A DNA stretch of 35,544 bases from a virus. Positions 7,107 to 17,716 of this stretch are shown here, one piece after another (position 1 is the first letter of the stretch; each line of letters opens with the position of its first letter). The stretch spans positions 1 through 35,544 of IMG/VR virus record IMGVR_UViG_3300030333_003248; one strand, 5' to 3'. The notes under the pieces are model-generated. The model made no database searches and was not told the origin of the DNA. It worked only from the letters and a program-made list of their open reading frames with translations. Position numbers and translations under genes: made by a program.

Positions 7107-8456
7107 ATGTCTGAGAAATTTAACTCAGGACAAGTAAAATTTGGAACTCCAGGTTCACAAACAGCACTATCTCTATCAAATGCGTCAAGACGATTATATG
7201 ACTTTAGTGATAGAGTAGCTGATTTAGCACCAGAGGAGTCTCCATTTTTTGTCTATTTGTCAAAAGTAGCTAAAGTTCCAACGTCGGATAGTCAGTTCCG
7301 ATTTTTGGAAGATAGAACTAAGGTTCATATGACTGACAGAAGCTTTTTGCTAAAAGGTGCAACAACTCTTGTAGCTGAAGGCTCATCTATGGATGTAACA
7401 TTTGATACATCAGGTGCAGCATCTGTAGATTTTTTATTGCCAGGAATGGTAGTAGCAATTGGAGATATTGATGGTAATTCAGTACCAACAACTGCAAATG
7501 TAAGAATAAATACTGTAAATCATGGAAGTAACGAAACTGTATGTAATATAACATCTATTTCACATGTTGCTGGTGCAAGTACTCTTGCTTTAGCAGATGA
7601 TTCAAAATCTACTGTTGTTGGTACATCTTTTGAGCAAGGTTCTGGTTCACCAGATGTATTTTCTCAAGAGCTAGACCATGACTTAGGTTACACACAGATA
7701 TTTAAAACTGCGTGTGAAATGACTAACACTGCACGAGCAACTATCTACAGAGGCTATGCTGATGAGTTCCAAAGAATTTGGAATCTTAAATTAAGAGAGC
7801 ATAAAGTAGATATTGAGCGAGCAATGTTATTTGGCCAAAAAGGTACTCAAGGTGGTATACAGTACACAGATGGTATTGTAGGCTCAACTATTAGAAATGG
7901 ATACGCTAATGTTGTAAATGACGGTGACCAACTTTCTTACAATGCTGGTGTTCCTTATTACAAATCTAATACTGCAGCTGAGTTAACATATGATGATATC
8001 TTATCTGATTTTGAAGTAATCTTTGACCCTGCAAGGGGTGGAGGAAGAAGTAAACTTGCTTTAGCTTCACGACCAGTTATATCTCATTTTAACAAACTAG
8101 GTTCAACTGGTTTTGTTGGAGGTTCTTTAACTGATGGAGACCAAAGATATAACTTCCCTGCTAGCCAAGGTCAGTTTGGTCACTTAATAACAAAAGTAGA
8201 TACAATACATGGTGATATTTCAATGGTAGCTGAGTCTCTATTTAGAGGTTTTGCTGCAGGATTCATGATGATGGTTGATTTAGACCACGTATCATACAGA
8301 CCTCTTGTAGGAAATGGCCTTAACAGAGACACATCTATTACAACTAATGTGCAACAGGCTGATGAAGATTTACGTAAAGATATGATTCTAACAGAAGCAG
8401 GTCTTGAAGTATCTCTTCCTGAAACTCACGCACTTATTAATTTGGAGGGTGTGTAA
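7107..8456 (+). CDS. Major capsid protein, HK97 fold, SU10-like
   Basis: A 449-residue protein that follows the scaffold with a strong ribosome binding site (AAGGAGAAAATAAAATG). The sequence resembles SU10-type capsid proteins: RVADLAPEESPFFVYLSK near the N-terminus, then DLGYTQIFKTACEMTNTA and LKLREHKVDIERAMLFGQKG in the spine-helix area, and a C-terminal KDMILTEAGLEVSLPETHALI. The T/D/G-rich segment at about residues 95-175 looks like an inserted beta domain. The HK97 fold is inferred, not directly seen. The strong ribosome binding site fits very high expression. Confidence 0.88.
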   Translation: MSEKFNSGQVKFGTPGSQTALSLSNASRRLYDFSDRVADLAPEESPFFVYLSKVAKVPTSDSQFRFLEDRTKVHMTDRSFLLKGATTLVAEGSSMDVTFDTSGAASVDFLLPGMVVAIGDIDGNSVPTTANVRINTVNHGSNETVCNITSISHVAGASTLALADDSKSTVVGTSFEQGSGSPDVFSQELDHDLGYTQIFKTACEMTNTARATIYRGYADEFQRIWNLKLREHKVDIERAMLFGQKGTQGGIQYTDGIVGSTIRNGYANVVNDGDQLSYNAGVPYYKSNTAAELTYDDILSDFEVIFDPARGGGRSKLALASRPVISHFNKLGSTGFVGGSLTDGDQRYNFPASQGQFGHLITKVDTIHGDISMVAESLFRGFAAGFMMMVDLDHVSYRPLVGNGLNRDTSITTNVQQADEDLRKDMILTEAGLEVSLPETHALINLEGV

Positions 8457-8457
8457 A

Positions 8458-8910
8458 ATGAGAAGTGATTATTTAAATGAAAACATAATGAGCAATAGCG
8501 GACACAAGAAAAAAGTAAAAGTTCTTTCTACTGCTTCAACTCTTGCAGAATCTGATTCAGGGTCAATATTTTTATTAAACTCTACTGCAGAATTTGCTAC
8601 AACACTACCAGCAGTTGCTACTGCAGGAGCTGGTTGGTATTGTAAAATTGTTGTAGAAGCTGCACCATCTGGTGCATCTTATACAGTAATTGAAGGTGAA
8701 GGTTCTGACGCTAATGTTATTATCGTTAATGGTATAAACGAGCTTGAAGTTGACACTAGTGATGATGGTGTATCAAGCACAGGATGTTCAACAATTACTT
8801 TTGCAGATGGCGTAGCTATTAAAGGTGATTTTATTGATATCTGGTGTGATGGTTCAAACTATTATGTTTCAGGTCAAACTAAAGCTGATGGTGGTATATC
8901 AGTAGGATAA
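8458..8910 (+). CDS. Capsid decoration-like protein
   Basis: A 150-residue, mostly beta, Ser/Thr/Ala/Gly-rich protein. The start at ATG 8458 is chosen because GGAGG lies 10 bases upstream, inside the capsid gene end; the open frame extends further but without such support. Sequence features are DSGSIFLLNSTAEFATTLPAVATAGAGWYCKIVVEAA and repeated short beta strands to the end. This pattern (a gap-filling 'LTSADSG..F.LN....ITLPA' type) is common in phage head-decoration and fibre-cap proteins. The position right after the major capsid gene favours a decoration or cement protein. There is no membrane segment or enzyme motif. Confidence 0.65.
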   Translation: MRSDYLNENIMSNSGHKKKVKVLSTASTLAESDSGSIFLLNSTAEFATTLPAVATAGAGWYCKIVVEAAPSGASYTVIEGEGSDANVIIVNGINELEVDTSDDGVSSTGCSTITFADGVAIKGDFIDIWCDGSNYYVSGQTKADGGISVG

Positions 8911-8925
8911 TCCAAAATCATAAGG

Positions 8926-8995
8926 GTTAACAGTTTTGTAGGACTGTGCAGGGTATCGTATAAAGGGTACCCTGCGAACCTACTAAAATTTTAAC
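8926..8995 (+). other. Long RNA hairpin after capsid genes
   Basis: A nearly continuous stem-loop of 70 bases. The inner stem is GCAGGGTA (8948-8955) with TACCCTGC (8968-8975), 12-base loop. The middle stem is GTAGG (8938-8942) with CCTAC (8979-8983), followed by TTTT with AAAA across a one-base bulge. The outer stem is GTTAA (8926-8930) with TTAAC (8991-8995). No U-run follows, so it is not a standard terminator. It may shield the capsid mRNA end, be an RNase cut site, or weaken read-through to later genes. Confidence 0.7.
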
Positions 8996-9049
8996 AGTAC
9001 GTTCACGCTCTAGCCAAGAGCTTAAAGTACACTCACAAAGGAGAATAAA

Positions 9050-12133: not shown

Positions 12134-12322
12134 ATGGCTAGCAGATATTGGAAGCGAAACAATGAAGGAAAACTTGTAGAGTTTTTTCCTAATCAAAGAA
12201 GTTTTGCAGATGGCCCTGTTAGTAATCATGTGAATATGAGAAAAACTTGGAGTGGCACAACTAAAATAGAATTTAGTCAAACTACTATGGACAAAGATAT
12301 AGCTGATAGGAATAATAGATAA
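12134..12322 (+). CDS. Small protein of unknown function
   Basis: A 62-residue protein that begins 2 bases after the HGG-repeat gene and ends by sharing a base with the next ATG (TAATG). Sequence features are MASRYWKRNNEGKLVEFFPNQRSF, then SNHVNMRKTWSGTTKIEFSQ. It is hydrophilic with no membrane segment. The tight spacing on both sides supports it as a real gene of the virion operon. No family was recognised. Confidence 0.65.
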   Translation: MASRYWKRNNEGKLVEFFPNQRSFADGPVSNHVNMRKTWSGTTKIEFSQTTMDKDIADRNNR

Positions 12323-13980
12323 TGGCAAATTTTGATGCACAAATACAAGCATTAGCAGGAACAGCAAATAATACTGAAATGAATGATTGGGCAGCTGATG
12401 GAGCAAAGGAGATAATTAATATTTTGCCTCCTGATTTAAAAGCAAAATGCACAACATTTACTTTACTAAATGCAAGTTCTACTACTTTAGATTTAGATAC
12501 TATAGGTGAAATAATGCATGTAACAAGGGAAAATGCTGATTCTGGGTATTATGTTCCATGCAGAAAGATTCTAGCAATGTATGGAGATATGTCAAATGAT
12601 TCTGGAAGTATGATGTATTATGCAACTGCTACTGACCCAGTATATTGGATAGACAGCAATGGTAGTGATGCTGCAACATTATTTGTAAAACCAACACCTA
12701 CTGATGCTCAACCTGCAAAAGCATATCATATTTCATATCCTTCTATTACATGTAGTGATGTAAGTACAATACCAAACTTTCCAGATGAAGCAGAATATTT
12801 AGTAGTATTATATGTAGCTATAAAAGTATTGCATAATAAAATGAATGAAATGAACTCTAACACAGCTATTGATACAACTTCTTTTGGAGCCATAACAACT
12901 GAATTAAATAAAGTAGACGATGTAATTGTTGAAGCAAGTAATAAAATAGATGCTTTTTATACTTCAATTGGAGATATTGATGATACTAATGAACTTTTTG
13001 ATAATACAAATAAAAGATTTACAGTAGTAAGAGATGCTCTGCTTTTAGCGCAAAATTTAATTGATGGTGACCAACCTAATTCAGCTTATGATGCATATGC
13101 AAATTTATCAGATATTGATAGTGCTATGGGTGCAATAGATGCTCATTTAAGTGATGGAGAAACTGTATTAGGAGCAAATCCATCATCAAGTGAAATAAAT
13201 ACAGCAATAGGTTTAGTAAAAACTGCAGTAGACCAAGCTGCAACAGCAGCAGGAAAATTTTTAGCTTCTGAATCTGATTCTGTTTTTGGAGATGAAGATA
13301 CATTTGAAACAGCAACCTCATCTATAGCTGGAGCACGAAATGCATTAACTAAAGCTCAATCTTTAATTGATGAATCAACTATAGGTGGTGATACAGAACC
13401 AGAATCTGCTCAGTATTGGCTTAATGATGAAGATGCTGAAATGGTAAATGCAACTATTAGCGTTGCAAGAACTGAAATATTAAGAGCAGAAACTGAAATA
13501 GCTCATTGGGTATCTATAGGAGATATGCGGGTAAAAGAAGTTCAGGTTGCATTGCAAGAAGCTGATGGCTATGCAAATGAAGTTCAAGCAAGATTATCTT
13601 ACGCTAAAGCATATGCAGATGCTGCTAGAGCTAGAAGAGCAGAGGGAGAGGGTCGTATTGCTCAATTAAACGCTACAGTTTCTGTTGCCAATCAAGAACT
13701 TCAAAGAGCTCAAGTTGCGATTGCAGAAATAAATAGTTTAATGGCATCTTATAAATTAGAATTAGATGGTGTTCCATTATATTTTCAAGAAGCATCAAGT
13801 TATATTAGTCAAGCTCAAGGATATATAGCAGAATCACAAATTAGAATGGAAAGAGAAGGCCAAAAATATAATTGGTATCAATCACAACAAGAAAAATTAC
13901 AACAAGATTATGACAAAGGCATACAGATGCTTATTGCTTCAAATATGCCTGCTGAAAATACAAAAAGAGAACAGGAGTAA
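12322..13980 (+). CDS. Neck/adaptor-like structural protein with coiled coil
   Basis: A 552-residue protein in two parts. Residues about 1-185 resemble head-tail adaptor or neck proteins (MANFDAQIQALAGTANNTEM, DWAADGAKEIINILPPDLKA, YVPCRKILAMYGDM, IPNFPDEAEYLVVLYVAIKVL). The rest is a very long, Ala/Gln/Glu-rich helical region with coiled-coil character (VNATISVARTEILRAETEIAH, VQARLSYAKAYADAARARRA, YISQAQGYIAESQIRMEREG), ending in WYQSQQEKLQQDYDKGIQML. It could join the portal to the tail and extend as a long fibre or needle. It is not a P22 needle by sequence. Adaptor function is inferred from N-terminal similarity and position. Confidence 0.6.
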   Translation: MANFDAQIQALAGTANNTEMNDWAADGAKEIINILPPDLKAKCTTFTLLNASSTTLDLDTIGEIMHVTRENADSGYYVPCRKILAMYGDMSNDSGSMMYYATATDPVYWIDSNGSDAATLFVKPTPTDAQPAKAYHISYPSITCSDVSTIPNFPDEAEYLVVLYVAIKVLHNKMNEMNSNTAIDTTSFGAITTELNKVDDVIVEASNKIDAFYTSIGDIDDTNELFDNTNKRFTVVRDALLLAQNLIDGDQPNSAYDAYANLSDIDSAMGAIDAHLSDGETVLGANPSSSEINTAIGLVKTAVDQAATAAGKFLASESDSVFGDEDTFETATSSIAGARNALTKAQSLIDESTIGGDTEPESAQYWLNDEDAEMVNATISVARTEILRAETEIAHWVSIGDMRVKEVQVALQEADGYANEVQARLSYAKAYADAARARRAEGEGRIAQLNATVSVANQELQRAQVAIAEINSLMASYKLELDGVPLYFQEASSYISQAQGYIAESQIRMEREGQKYNWYQSQQEKLQQDYDKGIQMLIASNMPAENTKREQE

Positions 13981-13982
13981 AA

Positions 13983-14447
13983 ATGGCAAGTACACTGACA
14001 GCCGCAACACTAACATCAACAATATCAGAGTCAATAACTTTAAATGGAAAAAATCAAGGTGGTACTACTACTGTGAGTATCCCCGACATTAAAAGTGTAT
14101 ACAAGCGAATTATTACATGTCCAGCAAATCAAACAACGACAATAGCTACTTTTGCAAGCACTGTACATGCTTCGGCTGGTGCAATAGACGTAGAAGATGC
14201 TAGATATATACGTGTTACAAATTTAGATGCAACGGCTCCAATAACATTGGCAGTTGTAGGAGCAGCGACATTATATCAAGTTTCATTGGAGTTTGGAAGA
14301 AGTCATGTTTTATCTACACCTGATGGTTTAATGCTGGCAGAAGAAGATACTAGTCCAAGTTTTGGCACAAAAGCAGATATAGCCAGTCTTCAAATAAATC
14401 CTGCTGGAAACACAGTAGATATAGAAATAATGGTAGCAAGCGTATAG
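13983..14447 (+). CDS. Virion structural protein, beta-rich
   Basis: A 154-residue Thr/Ala/Ser-rich protein with many beta strands (TSTISESITLNG, RIITCPANQTTTIATFAS, YIRVTNLDATAPITLAVVG, FGRSHVLSTPDGLMLAEED). It has the look of a small tail or neck adaptor or a decoration-type sandwich. It is placed between the adaptor-like protein and the split neck gene. The stop is followed at once by GAGATTAAATG, so the stop TAG is part of the next ribosome binding site. Confidence 0.65.
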   Translation: MASTLTAATLTSTISESITLNGKNQGGTTTVSIPDIKSVYKRIITCPANQTTTIATFASTVHASAGAIDVEDARYIRVTNLDATAPITLAVVGAATLYQVSLEFGRSHVLSTPDGLMLAEEDTSPSFGTKADIASLQINPAGNTVDIEIMVASV

Positions 14448-14455
14448 GAGATTAA

Positions 14456-14764
14456 ATGACTGTTAAAGATATAGTAGGGCAAATAGAACATTTATTTGGC
14501 AGGCAGCCAGAGCAATATATGTATCAACTAATTAATGATGGATTATTAGATATTGCATCTACAGTTCAACATTTTAGTGCTGTTGCTAGAACAGATTTGA
14601 CTTCATATCAACGATGGTATGATTTGGATGATTCTGCAGTTATAGATGTATTTAGGGTAGAAATACTTGATAATAATAATAGGTATGTAATGATTCCTAA
14701 ATTAGCAGATTCACACAAACTACTTAAAGAAGACAGTGATGTTGAAATTAACACAAAAACTTAG
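14456..14764 (+). CDS. Neck/tail adaptor protein, N-terminal part
   Basis: A 102-residue protein that appears to be the front half of a head-tail adaptor (neck) family of about 220-250 residues: helix-rich start (IVGQIEHLFGRQPEQYMYQLINDGLLDI), then a beta core (YQRWYDLDDSAVIDVFRVEIL, YVMIPKLADSHKLL). It stops at TAG (14762-14764). After GAG TAT ATA, the same frame continues with the ATG of the next gene. The family pattern 'RYY-L-..I-..-IP-L-..-NDRL-IV' runs across both. Either the gene has split into two subunits, or the TAG is read through at some rate. Confidence 0.7.
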   Translation: MTVKDIVGQIEHLFGRQPEQYMYQLINDGLLDIASTVQHFSAVARTDLTSYQRWYDLDDSAVIDVFRVEILDNNNRYVMIPKLADSHKLLKEDSDVEINTKT

Positions 14765-14773
14765 GAGTATATA

Positions 14774-15172
14774 ATGGCTACTAATAAACGAAGTTTCCCT
14801 AATGATTATTTTGCATGGTATAATGATGATAATCGATTAGCTGTAGTTTGTAGAGTATTGTCATCAGATAGCACTGCAACAGTTGATGATAAATTTGATA
14901 CATATACAGGAGATGACGTTACAAGTGGAATTAGAATGCATTATCATGCTAAGTATACTCCAGTAACATCTTTAACTCAAGATTTAACATCAAACTCAGG
15001 TCTTGATTCAGGTCTACATTCAGCGTTAGTTGACTATGTAAAATCAAGATTATTAGAAGATGCAGGTGATTTACAGCGAGCATCTTATTTTAAGGCAAAA
15101 TACGATAAACACATCAAGCAATACCCACACCGAAAAACAGGCGTAAGACAATTAGCTGTGCCAAAGCTATAA
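14774..15172 (+). CDS. Neck/tail adaptor protein, C-terminal part
   Basis: A 132-residue protein in the same frame as the preceding gene, separated from its TAG stop by 9 bases. The ribosome binding site TAGGAG (14762-14767) includes the stop codon, with 6 bases to the ATG. The sequence completes a neck-protein pattern: YFAWYNDDNRLAVVCRVL, then IRMHYHAKYTPVTSLTQDL, then the helix LHSALVDYVKSRLLEDAG-DLQRASYFKAKY and a basic end with VRQLAVPKL. It should work with the N-terminal part in the collar under the portal. The good ribosome binding site shows that separate translation is possible. Confidence 0.7.
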   Translation: MATNKRSFPNDYFAWYNDDNRLAVVCRVLSSDSTATVDDKFDTYTGDDVTSGIRMHYHAKYTPVTSLTQDLTSNSGLDSGLHSALVDYVKSRLLEDAGDLQRASYFKAKYDKHIKQYPHRKTGVRQLAVPKL

Positions 15173-15181
15173 GGAGAATAA

Positions 15182-17716
15182 ATGGCAACAAATTGGATAG
15201 TAGAGACAATATCAACTGCGGTAAGCGATACAGGTAATAAGACTGCATACTTAGCAGATAGTAGCGGTTTTAATATAAATGATTCTAGTGACAGTGCAAC
15301 TATATTTAAAGTATTAAATGATTCTAGTGATTATTATAGCATGGCAATATATGGGCATGAGGGTCAATCAGCTAAGTTTTATTTAGTTGCAGATAATGGT
15401 GATGACCAAGCAGATGCATGGTTATGGCAGGTAGCAGATGGTGGTACAATGTCATGGAAAGCGCGTTCATCAGGTACAGGTGACCCTCAAGGAGATACAT
15501 ATGCTAACACTACAATGTCTCTTGATACTAGTGGTAATCTTACGACATTAGGAAATGTAACAACTGGTACGAGAATAAGAGCAGTAGCAGGTGAAGGTGG
15601 AAATGCGCAGATTGAACTATGGGCAGATGAAGGTGATGACAATGTAGATAAATGGGCAATAGGTTCCTTTGCCTCTAACAACTATCTTTATTTTTGGAAT
15701 TTTATTGATGGCACATGGGGCCCAAAATTATACTTAACTACTTCAGGAGATGCAGTTGTAGCAGGAACTCTTGATGTAGCAGGTGCTTCAGTTAATATTG
15801 GTGCAAATTCTTATTTAACGCTAACAGAAAATGAAATTGATGTTTCAAGTGGAAATTTAACATTAGATGTTTCTGGTGATATTGAATTAAATGCTGATGG
15901 TGGAGATATTCAATTTAAAGATGATACTGCGCTATTAGGCTCAATTTCAAATGCAAATAAAAGTCAAACTTTAGGATTACACGCTGGAAATGCAATTGCT
16001 AGTGATTTGATGTCTACTGCAATAGGATATGAAGCTTTAAAAACTGAAGATGGAGCAGTTGGTAATATTGCTATAGGTCATCAAGCATTAAAGTTATCAA
16101 ATGATGATGATGCTGATTATAATATTGCAATTGGATTTGAAGCAATGGAAAATGGTACTGCTCCAGGTCAAAAAAACATTGCAATAGGATATGAATGTTT
16201 AACAGCTGCTGGATTCTCAGGAAGCTTTAATGTATCTATTGGAGGCCTTTCATTAACTGCTTGTGAAGAAGGTGCTAGAAATGTAGCATTAGGTCATTCT
16301 GCGCTTGCAAGCGCAGTAGAAGATTCACGAAATATTGCAATTGGATATGAAGCCTTAACTACTCAAAATGCAGGTGGAAGTGATAACGCAGCAACATCGA
16401 CATATAATACTGCCGTAGGATATAATTCAGGCAAATCTATAACAACAGGAATGAATAATACTTTATATGGTGCTTTGTCTGCAGATGCATTAACATCAGG
16501 AACTAATAATGTTGCAATTGGAATTAATAGTATGGGAGTAGCTCAAGATGTTGATAATTTAATAGCCATAGGGACAAATGCATTGAATTCATGTAATAGT
16601 AGTGATTCAGATGGGACTGTTGCTATTGGATATTATGCATTAAGTGAGAATATTGATGGTCGATATAATACCGCGCTAGGATATAATGCATTAAAAGAAA
16701 ATGTAGATGGAGATGGAAATACAGCTGTTGGATATCAAGCATTACAAAACTTTGAAGCAGACTCTAATGGACATGGAAATAATACGGGATTAGGAGAACA
16801 TGCTGGTCGATTTGTATCTACGGGAACAGGAAATACAGCTCTTGGAGCTAGTGCTTTACAAGGAGGCTCGGGTTCACAAATAACTGGAGATAAAAATACT
16901 TGCGTTGGACTTAATACTGGCCTTGTAATAGAAGGAGCAGCATCAAATAATACGTTAATAGGAGCTAGCGCAGGCGATGCAATAACTACAGGAAGTAGCA
17001 ATACCGTTGTAGGACACAACGCATTAACAGAAAATTCTACTTCTGATAACAATGTTGCAATAGGAAGAGAAGCAGGCAAGTTATGTACTTCTACACAAAA
17101 TGTATTTTTAGGAGCTTTAGCAGGCAATGCAGTTACTAGTGGAAGAGATAATGTTATAATTGGATACGGCTCAGATGGAGCTTTAGATAAAGATAATCAA
17201 ATTGCAATTGGACACAATGCTACAGGTGCTGAAGATAATACAATTGTTATTGGAGATGGAATTACTAATAGCACTACTGATACATTTGCATTTGGGAAAG
17301 CAAGTAATATTGCAACTTCTAGTGCATTTACAAACTCAGGTTCTTGCACTTTTGCATTTTCTTCAGATAGAAGAAAAAAACAAAATATTAAAGATGGTGA
17401 ACTAGGATTAGAATTTATTAATAAACTTCAATATCGCACTTTTAATTGGAAACCATCAAATGAATTTCCAAAAGAATGGAATGATTATAATGAAGAAAAT
17501 ACAATGAATTTAGATAAAGTTCATCATGGTTTTATTGCACAGGAAGTAAAAGAAGTATTAGATGAATATGGAGTAGCAGATGAAATGGATGTATGGTCTG
17601 AAGATGCAGATGGAATGCAAAGATTAGCAGAAACTAAATTAATAACTCCACTTATTAAAGCTGTTCAAGAATTATCAAAAGAAGTAGAAGAATTAAAAAA
17701 TAAAGTAGGAGAATAA
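15182..17716 (+). CDS. Tail fibre with beta-roll repeats and S74 chaperone
   Basis: An 844-residue host-recognition fibre. The N-terminal part (residues about 1-265) has short beta repeats with LTLDVSGDIELNADGGDIQFKDD. Residues about 275-715 carry many repeats of the type IAIGxxAL..., as in trimeric adhesin head (YadA-like) beta rolls, for example NVAIGREAGKL and NTAVGYQALQN. From about residue 725 an S74-type intramolecular chaperone begins, with S728-D729 in FSSDRRKKQNIKDG, TFNWKPS and HGFIAQEVKEVL. Its usual autocleavage would be just before S728. A C-terminal coiled coil ends the protein. It follows the neck genes with a strong ribosome binding site (TAAGGAGAATAAATG). Confidence 0.9.
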   Translation: MATNWIVETISTAVSDTGNKTAYLADSSGFNINDSSDSATIFKVLNDSSDYYSMAIYGHEGQSAKFYLVADNGDDQADAWLWQVADGGTMSWKARSSGTGDPQGDTYANTTMSLDTSGNLTTLGNVTTGTRIRAVAGEGGNAQIELWADEGDDNVDKWAIGSFASNNYLYFWNFIDGTWGPKLYLTTSGDAVVAGTLDVAGASVNIGANSYLTLTENEIDVSSGNLTLDVSGDIELNADGGDIQFKDDTALLGSISNANKSQTLGLHAGNAIASDLMSTAIGYEALKTEDGAVGNIAIGHQALKLSNDDDADYNIAIGFEAMENGTAPGQKNIAIGYECLTAAGFSGSFNVSIGGLSLTACEEGARNVALGHSALASAVEDSRNIAIGYEALTTQNAGGSDNAATSTYNTAVGYNSGKSITTGMNNTLYGALSADALTSGTNNVAIGINSMGVAQDVDNLIAIGTNALNSCNSSDSDGTVAIGYYALSENIDGRYNTALGYNALKENVDGDGNTAVGYQALQNFEADSNGHGNNTGLGEHAGRFVSTGTGNTALGASALQGGSGSQITGDKNTCVGLNTGLVIEGAASNNTLIGASAGDAITTGSSNTVVGHNALTENSTSDNNVAIGREAGKLCTSTQNVFLGALAGNAVTSGRDNVIIGYGSDGALDKDNQIAIGHNATGAEDNTIVIGDGITNSTTDTFAFGKASNIATSSAFTNSGSCTFAFSSDRRKKQNIKDGELGLEFINKLQYRTFNWKPSNEFPKEWNDYNEENTMNLDKVHHGFIAQEVKEVLDEYGVADEMDVWSEDADGMQRLAETKLITPLIKAVQELSKEVEELKNKVGE

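Follow-up and report, generated by a model that had tools for sequence, protein, structure and literature searches.

The head-tail adaptors, small ring proteins that connect the head of a tailed virus to its tail, rank with the most conserved of its structural components. In the record of an uncultured virus (35,544 bases, 35% G+C), analysed here over its whole length (the window), adaptor-like sequence is interrupted by a single in-frame amber codon, and the question raised by this locus is whether that codon breaks one gene or separates two. A first-pass annotation had left three readings side by side, a true split into two subunits, partial read-through of the TAG, and a recent nonsense mutation; the first of these proves to be the correct one. 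The two parts, p1 and p2, are separate genes that co-occur obligately, match complementary portions of one protein family profile and give one predicted fold. Most likely, an adaptor paralogue was divided long ago into two chains that co-fold, and the whole family shares this division.

The window contains genes for a terminase, a P22-type portal, an SU10-type capsid protein and a fibre, as well as replication genes. Its structural genes follow the order portal (4325), SU10_MCP (7107), an intact adaptor gene designated adap (12322), p1 and p2 (14456-15172), and fibre (15182), and the p1/p2 pair is therefore found where a podophage adaptor is expected, within the structural module and between the capsid and fibre genes. 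The forward-strand gene p1 (14456-14764) encodes 102 residues, assigned to the N-terminal half of a split SU10-type adaptor, and ends with TAG at 14762-14764; p2 (14774-15172, forward strand) starts with ATG at 14774 and encodes 132 residues assigned to the C-terminal half. Both are open in one shared frame, with TAG GAG TAT ATA between them, as the first-pass annotation had described. That annotation had also proposed that TAGGAG serves both as stop and as ribosome-binding site for the second ATG, and that the preceding junction (14445-14456) shares this design. Both points hold in the sequence: at TAGGAG (14762-14767, forward strand) the p1 stop codon overlaps the Shine-Dalgarno (SD) sequence of p2, and the junction at 14445, upstream of p1, has an identical stop-over-SD design. 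Such junctions are usual in the operon of the window and in the family. The junction of p2 with the fibre gene (15182; TAAGGAGAATAAATG) is likewise in frame with a 9-base gap, and these two genes are unrelated. Thus, the in-frame state of p1 and p2 in the window is unremarkable against chance, and the amber codon of p1 acts as a normal stop, its final bases doubling as part of the p2 ribosome-binding site. The fibre/spike gene that adjoins the split adaptor (15182-17716, forward strand) matches the tail spike family PHROG_4636 (2.2e-72) and carries a C-terminal Peptidase_S74 domain (4.4e-13).

The assignment of p1 and p2 to an adaptor comes from profile and fold comparisons of the joined chain. 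Against SU10_adaptor (PF24175; profile length 194, curated cut-off 27 bits), the joined p1+p2 frame scores 38.4 bits over profile positions 1-185 of 194, which places it within the family. SU10_adaptor is one polypeptide, whereas there are two open reading frames in the window and in every relative. An AlphaFold model of the joined frame as one linked chain, with the TAG read as Q and with 93 related rows, mostly single halves, folds as one adaptor (pLDDT 86.2, pTM 0.75). The least confident stretch, at about 50, is residues 90-110, within which the junction lies; the C terminus and a small number of further loops are moderate (66-73). In this model p1 is laid out as helix-helix-four strands followed by a short helix (H3-14, H19-37, E41-48, E54-56, E62-71, E77-79), and p2 as three strands followed by two long helices (E119-123, E127-133, E155-165, H185-203, H206-222 in joined numbering). 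The predicted fold is the four-helix bundle with a beta fibre-dock that characterizes podophage adaptors, and Foldseek agrees with it: 16 PDB matches have E <= 1e-3, and the top ones are adaptor chains of tail or portal-tail structures from cyanophage A4, SU10, KHP30, N4, B2, DEV, GP4 and crAss001, all of them distant (8-13% identity). In BFVD, 121 matches have E <= 1e-3, several of them named head-to-tail adaptor; the best, A0A516ML74, has 427 residues, aligns end to end with the joined chain and possibly contains an insertion that separates the halves. The first-pass annotation had suggested modelling both parts together, with two independent complete folds counting against a divided adaptor; the linked chain gives a single adaptor fold. 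By its topology, compared with the adaptors of SU10 and P-SCSP1u, the p1/p2 split would run through a flexible loop of the fibre-dock region. AlphaFold may unite the known halves of an adaptor when they are presented in a linked chain, and the model is no proof that the free chains associate.

Relatives were collected by searching IMG/VR with each half, with their alignments and with divergent members; 200 loci were tallied, and a few distant ones were added later. Wherever the flanking sequence suffices, p1 occurs with p2 (96/96), p2 with p1 (133/133), and p1 with adap upstream (131/131). The divergence of p1 follows that of p2 (Spearman 0.58; partial 0.53 given adap; 0 of 500 permutations as high); its difference from the p1-adap correlation of 0.42 has a bootstrap interval (-0.04 to 0.43) that includes zero, and the p1-p2 coupling is not clearly above the p1-adap coupling. 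These data bear on the most durable alternative, namely that p1 and p2 derive from an adaptor and are now independent small virion proteins acting at different places or steps. That they are separate genes, can be parted by one or two others and can be reordered is in its favor. Against it, neither half by itself would close the helix bundle or the sheet, the two always co-occur, and the model of the joined chain has good confidence to either side of the junction. We regard independent proteins as unlikely and favor two chains of one adaptor.

It is considerably less probable that p1 and p2 are unrelated neighbours whose likeness to an adaptor arose by chance. Taken by itself, p1 of the window gives no significant Pfam match, p2 alone reaches 22.6 bits, under the cut-off, and searches of PDB sequences with either half gave weak matches only, none of them convincing. 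Among these, B2 Gp50, a real adaptor, appeared at E 0.12-0.28; Psb27, at E ~0.01, is regarded as a chance match. In the scan against 24,736 Pfam families, however, 46 of 56 p1 members and 35 of 55 p2 members match this same family at complementary positions: those p1 members for which details were listed align with profile 1-79, one of them (from locus L073) scoring 32.2 bits alone, and p2 members, that of the window included, align with 115-185. The fold search agrees with an adaptor as well. The annotation's proposal that an adaptor pattern spans the junction is thus upheld by the complementary PF24175 matches, the end-to-end match of the joined frame and the single predicted fold. Because the window p1 has no Pfam match and p2 falls below the cut-off, annotation misses this neck protein.

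Partial amber read-through, yielding a long fused form alongside two short ones, would be marked by conservation of an in-frame stop and of an open frame beyond it. In the window the frames are in register and the joined chain folds well, as read-through would have it. Among 122 distinct junctions, however, 112 are out of frame, 10 are in frame and none is fused, and some have TAA. In the closest relatives (L001 and L002, 79-83% identical), the gap is 8 bases and out of frame, so that reading through the TAG would end in the wrong frame and then at a stop. Elsewhere the gaps are -1, 2, 3, 6, 7, 8, 9 or 10 bases, or several hundred, and most relatives have the stop-over-SD layout whatever the frame. 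At about 32 loci p1 and p2 are separated by 'up', the gene ahead of p1 in the window, present there once or twice, and at a single locus (L200, 2299-3092) p2 precedes p1. The split extends to distant relatives whose p1 is about 39% identical (L202, L204, L205 and L207), where most junctions are of the overlapping TAATG type. When profiles of both halves were run on all open frames of the relatives, no reading frame carrying both p1 and p2 was found among the 200 IMG/VR loci, nor was a fused relative found in GTDB genomes searched with the p2 alignment; p1, p2 and the joined chain had no tblastn match among 50,697 phage records. No tRNA gene, and thus no suppressor tRNA, was found within the window. 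Since the junctions are unfused and mostly out of frame, with other genes inserted at many loci and the order reversed at one, p1 and p2 are two genes family-wide, and read-through and recent nonsense mutation are excluded as general explanations. The first-pass annotation had named unlinked or reordered relatives as a refutation; such relatives exist, and they speak against one gene with a stop in it. For the window itself we consider read-through, which that annotation had left open, highly improbable. Least probable of all is its other suggestion, that a recent nonsense mutation, or else a sequencing error, disrupted what is one gene in this genome: one in-frame stop does divide two parts of one domain, but all relatives are split, mostly out of frame, and p2 is equipped with a start codon and a ribosome-binding site of its own. 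An in-frame stop between two matching halves, then, need not imply read-through.

A second adaptor gene upstream of p1 offers an undivided counterpart. The product of adap (12322-13980, forward strand) has an intact SU10-type adaptor domain (residues ~1-180 and C-terminal helices) with a long helical insert, and matches PF24175 with 36.7 bits over residues 15-180. The topology of its model equals that of p1+p2 element by element (H H E E E E h / E E E H H), and the p1/p2 break maps to an adap loop between residues ~92 and 107. Its best PDB fold match is a chain of the GP4 portal-tail structure (8jov_2, E 4e-3), the remaining matches reflecting its coiled coil. Profile-profile comparison of p1, p2 or the joined chain with the adap family was not significant. 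The insert, of about 320 residues, is helical, is predicted to form a coiled coil and lies between the conserved adaptor domain and a conserved C-terminal helix. Relatives of adap range from 199 to 763 codons (among them those at L002, L030, L037, L047, L051, L070 and L093), so that the insert comes and goes.

We propose that the two separately translated genes encode the N- and C-terminal halves of one SU10-type head-tail adaptor, and that this split adaptor is a paralogue of the intact adap product. In such a subunit p1 would contribute the first two helices of the bundle and the first strands of the fibre-dock, and p2 the remaining dock strands and the last two helices, the chains co-folding after translation. 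The two-chain subunits would then assemble as a neck ring, probably the ring on which the fibres dock. The split, in a loop of the dock region, would be old, and once it had occurred the halves would no longer need to be adjacent, allowing other genes to move between them. Here we infer the physical association of p1 with p2, the ring and its stoichiometry, the docking of fibres and which adaptor contacts the portal. We lean somewhat towards a virus family with two adaptor rings, one made of the intact adaptor with its variable coiled-coil extension and the other of subunits that are each a heterodimer of two rearrangeable halves from separate genes. If so, a neck ring that is normally built from a single chain would be a two-component assembly.

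The adaptors of SU10 and P-SCSP1u have a helix bundle, a fibre-dock domain and an embracing element, each in one chain present in twelve copies (PMC9509320, PMC10575957). SU10 gp11 (PF24175; PDB 7z47) resembles joined p1+p2 in its profile, end to end, and in the predicted helix-bundle and dock fold; gp11 precedes gp12 in SU10, and p1 and p2 likewise lie upstream of the fibre gene. Whereas gp11 is one chain, the phage of the window has two genes and a second, intact adaptor gene besides. The best fold matches, with TM of ~0.5-0.64, are the adaptors of cyanophage A4, KHP30, N4 and GP4 (PDB 9k09, 7wmp, 9lc0 and 8jov; two chains match in 8jov), which are single chains of ~195-240 residues with 11-13% identity to joined p1+p2. 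The helix bundle, fibre dock and embracing element are also the likeness to T7 gp11 and P-SCSP1u gp22 (PMC10575957, PMC9509320), although these are single chains and only weak Foldseek matches (E ~0.2-1.2). In the part of the literature that was covered, no description of an adaptor encoded by two genes was found, and within that coverage the two-gene adaptor appears to be previously undescribed. As judged from sequence, it is real that an entire family of uncultured microbial viruses divides an adaptor between two genes. If this stable mid-fold split, with other genes moving into the gap, is what it seems, strong constraint on assembly does not keep a ring protein from being broken and passed on in that state.

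Several features of the window and its relatives lie outside this argument. Between the major capsid gene and the next gene clearly led by an SD sequence are 593 bases (8457-9049); an open reading frame at 8404-8910, or from an internal ATG, overlaps the end of the capsid gene and has no family match. The p1 of L200 has an N-terminal extension of ~27 residues resembling the start of fibre genes. Longer p2 homologues of ~189-212 codons occur in L075-L080 and L185, with the insertion after conserved N-terminal residues 1-52, that is, inside the dock region. The gene 'up' (13983-14447, forward strand), for which no Pfam or PHROG assignment was obtained, encodes a beta-rich, virion-type product and is mobile, as judged from homology and the gene-order table. 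It may be a mobile module for virion decoration or fibre attachment. Relatives carry it at different positions around adap, p1 and p2, whether ahead of p1, flanked by the two halves or beyond p2, and in some it is tandemly duplicated (L009, L015, L055 and L185 are examples of moving or duplicated 'up').
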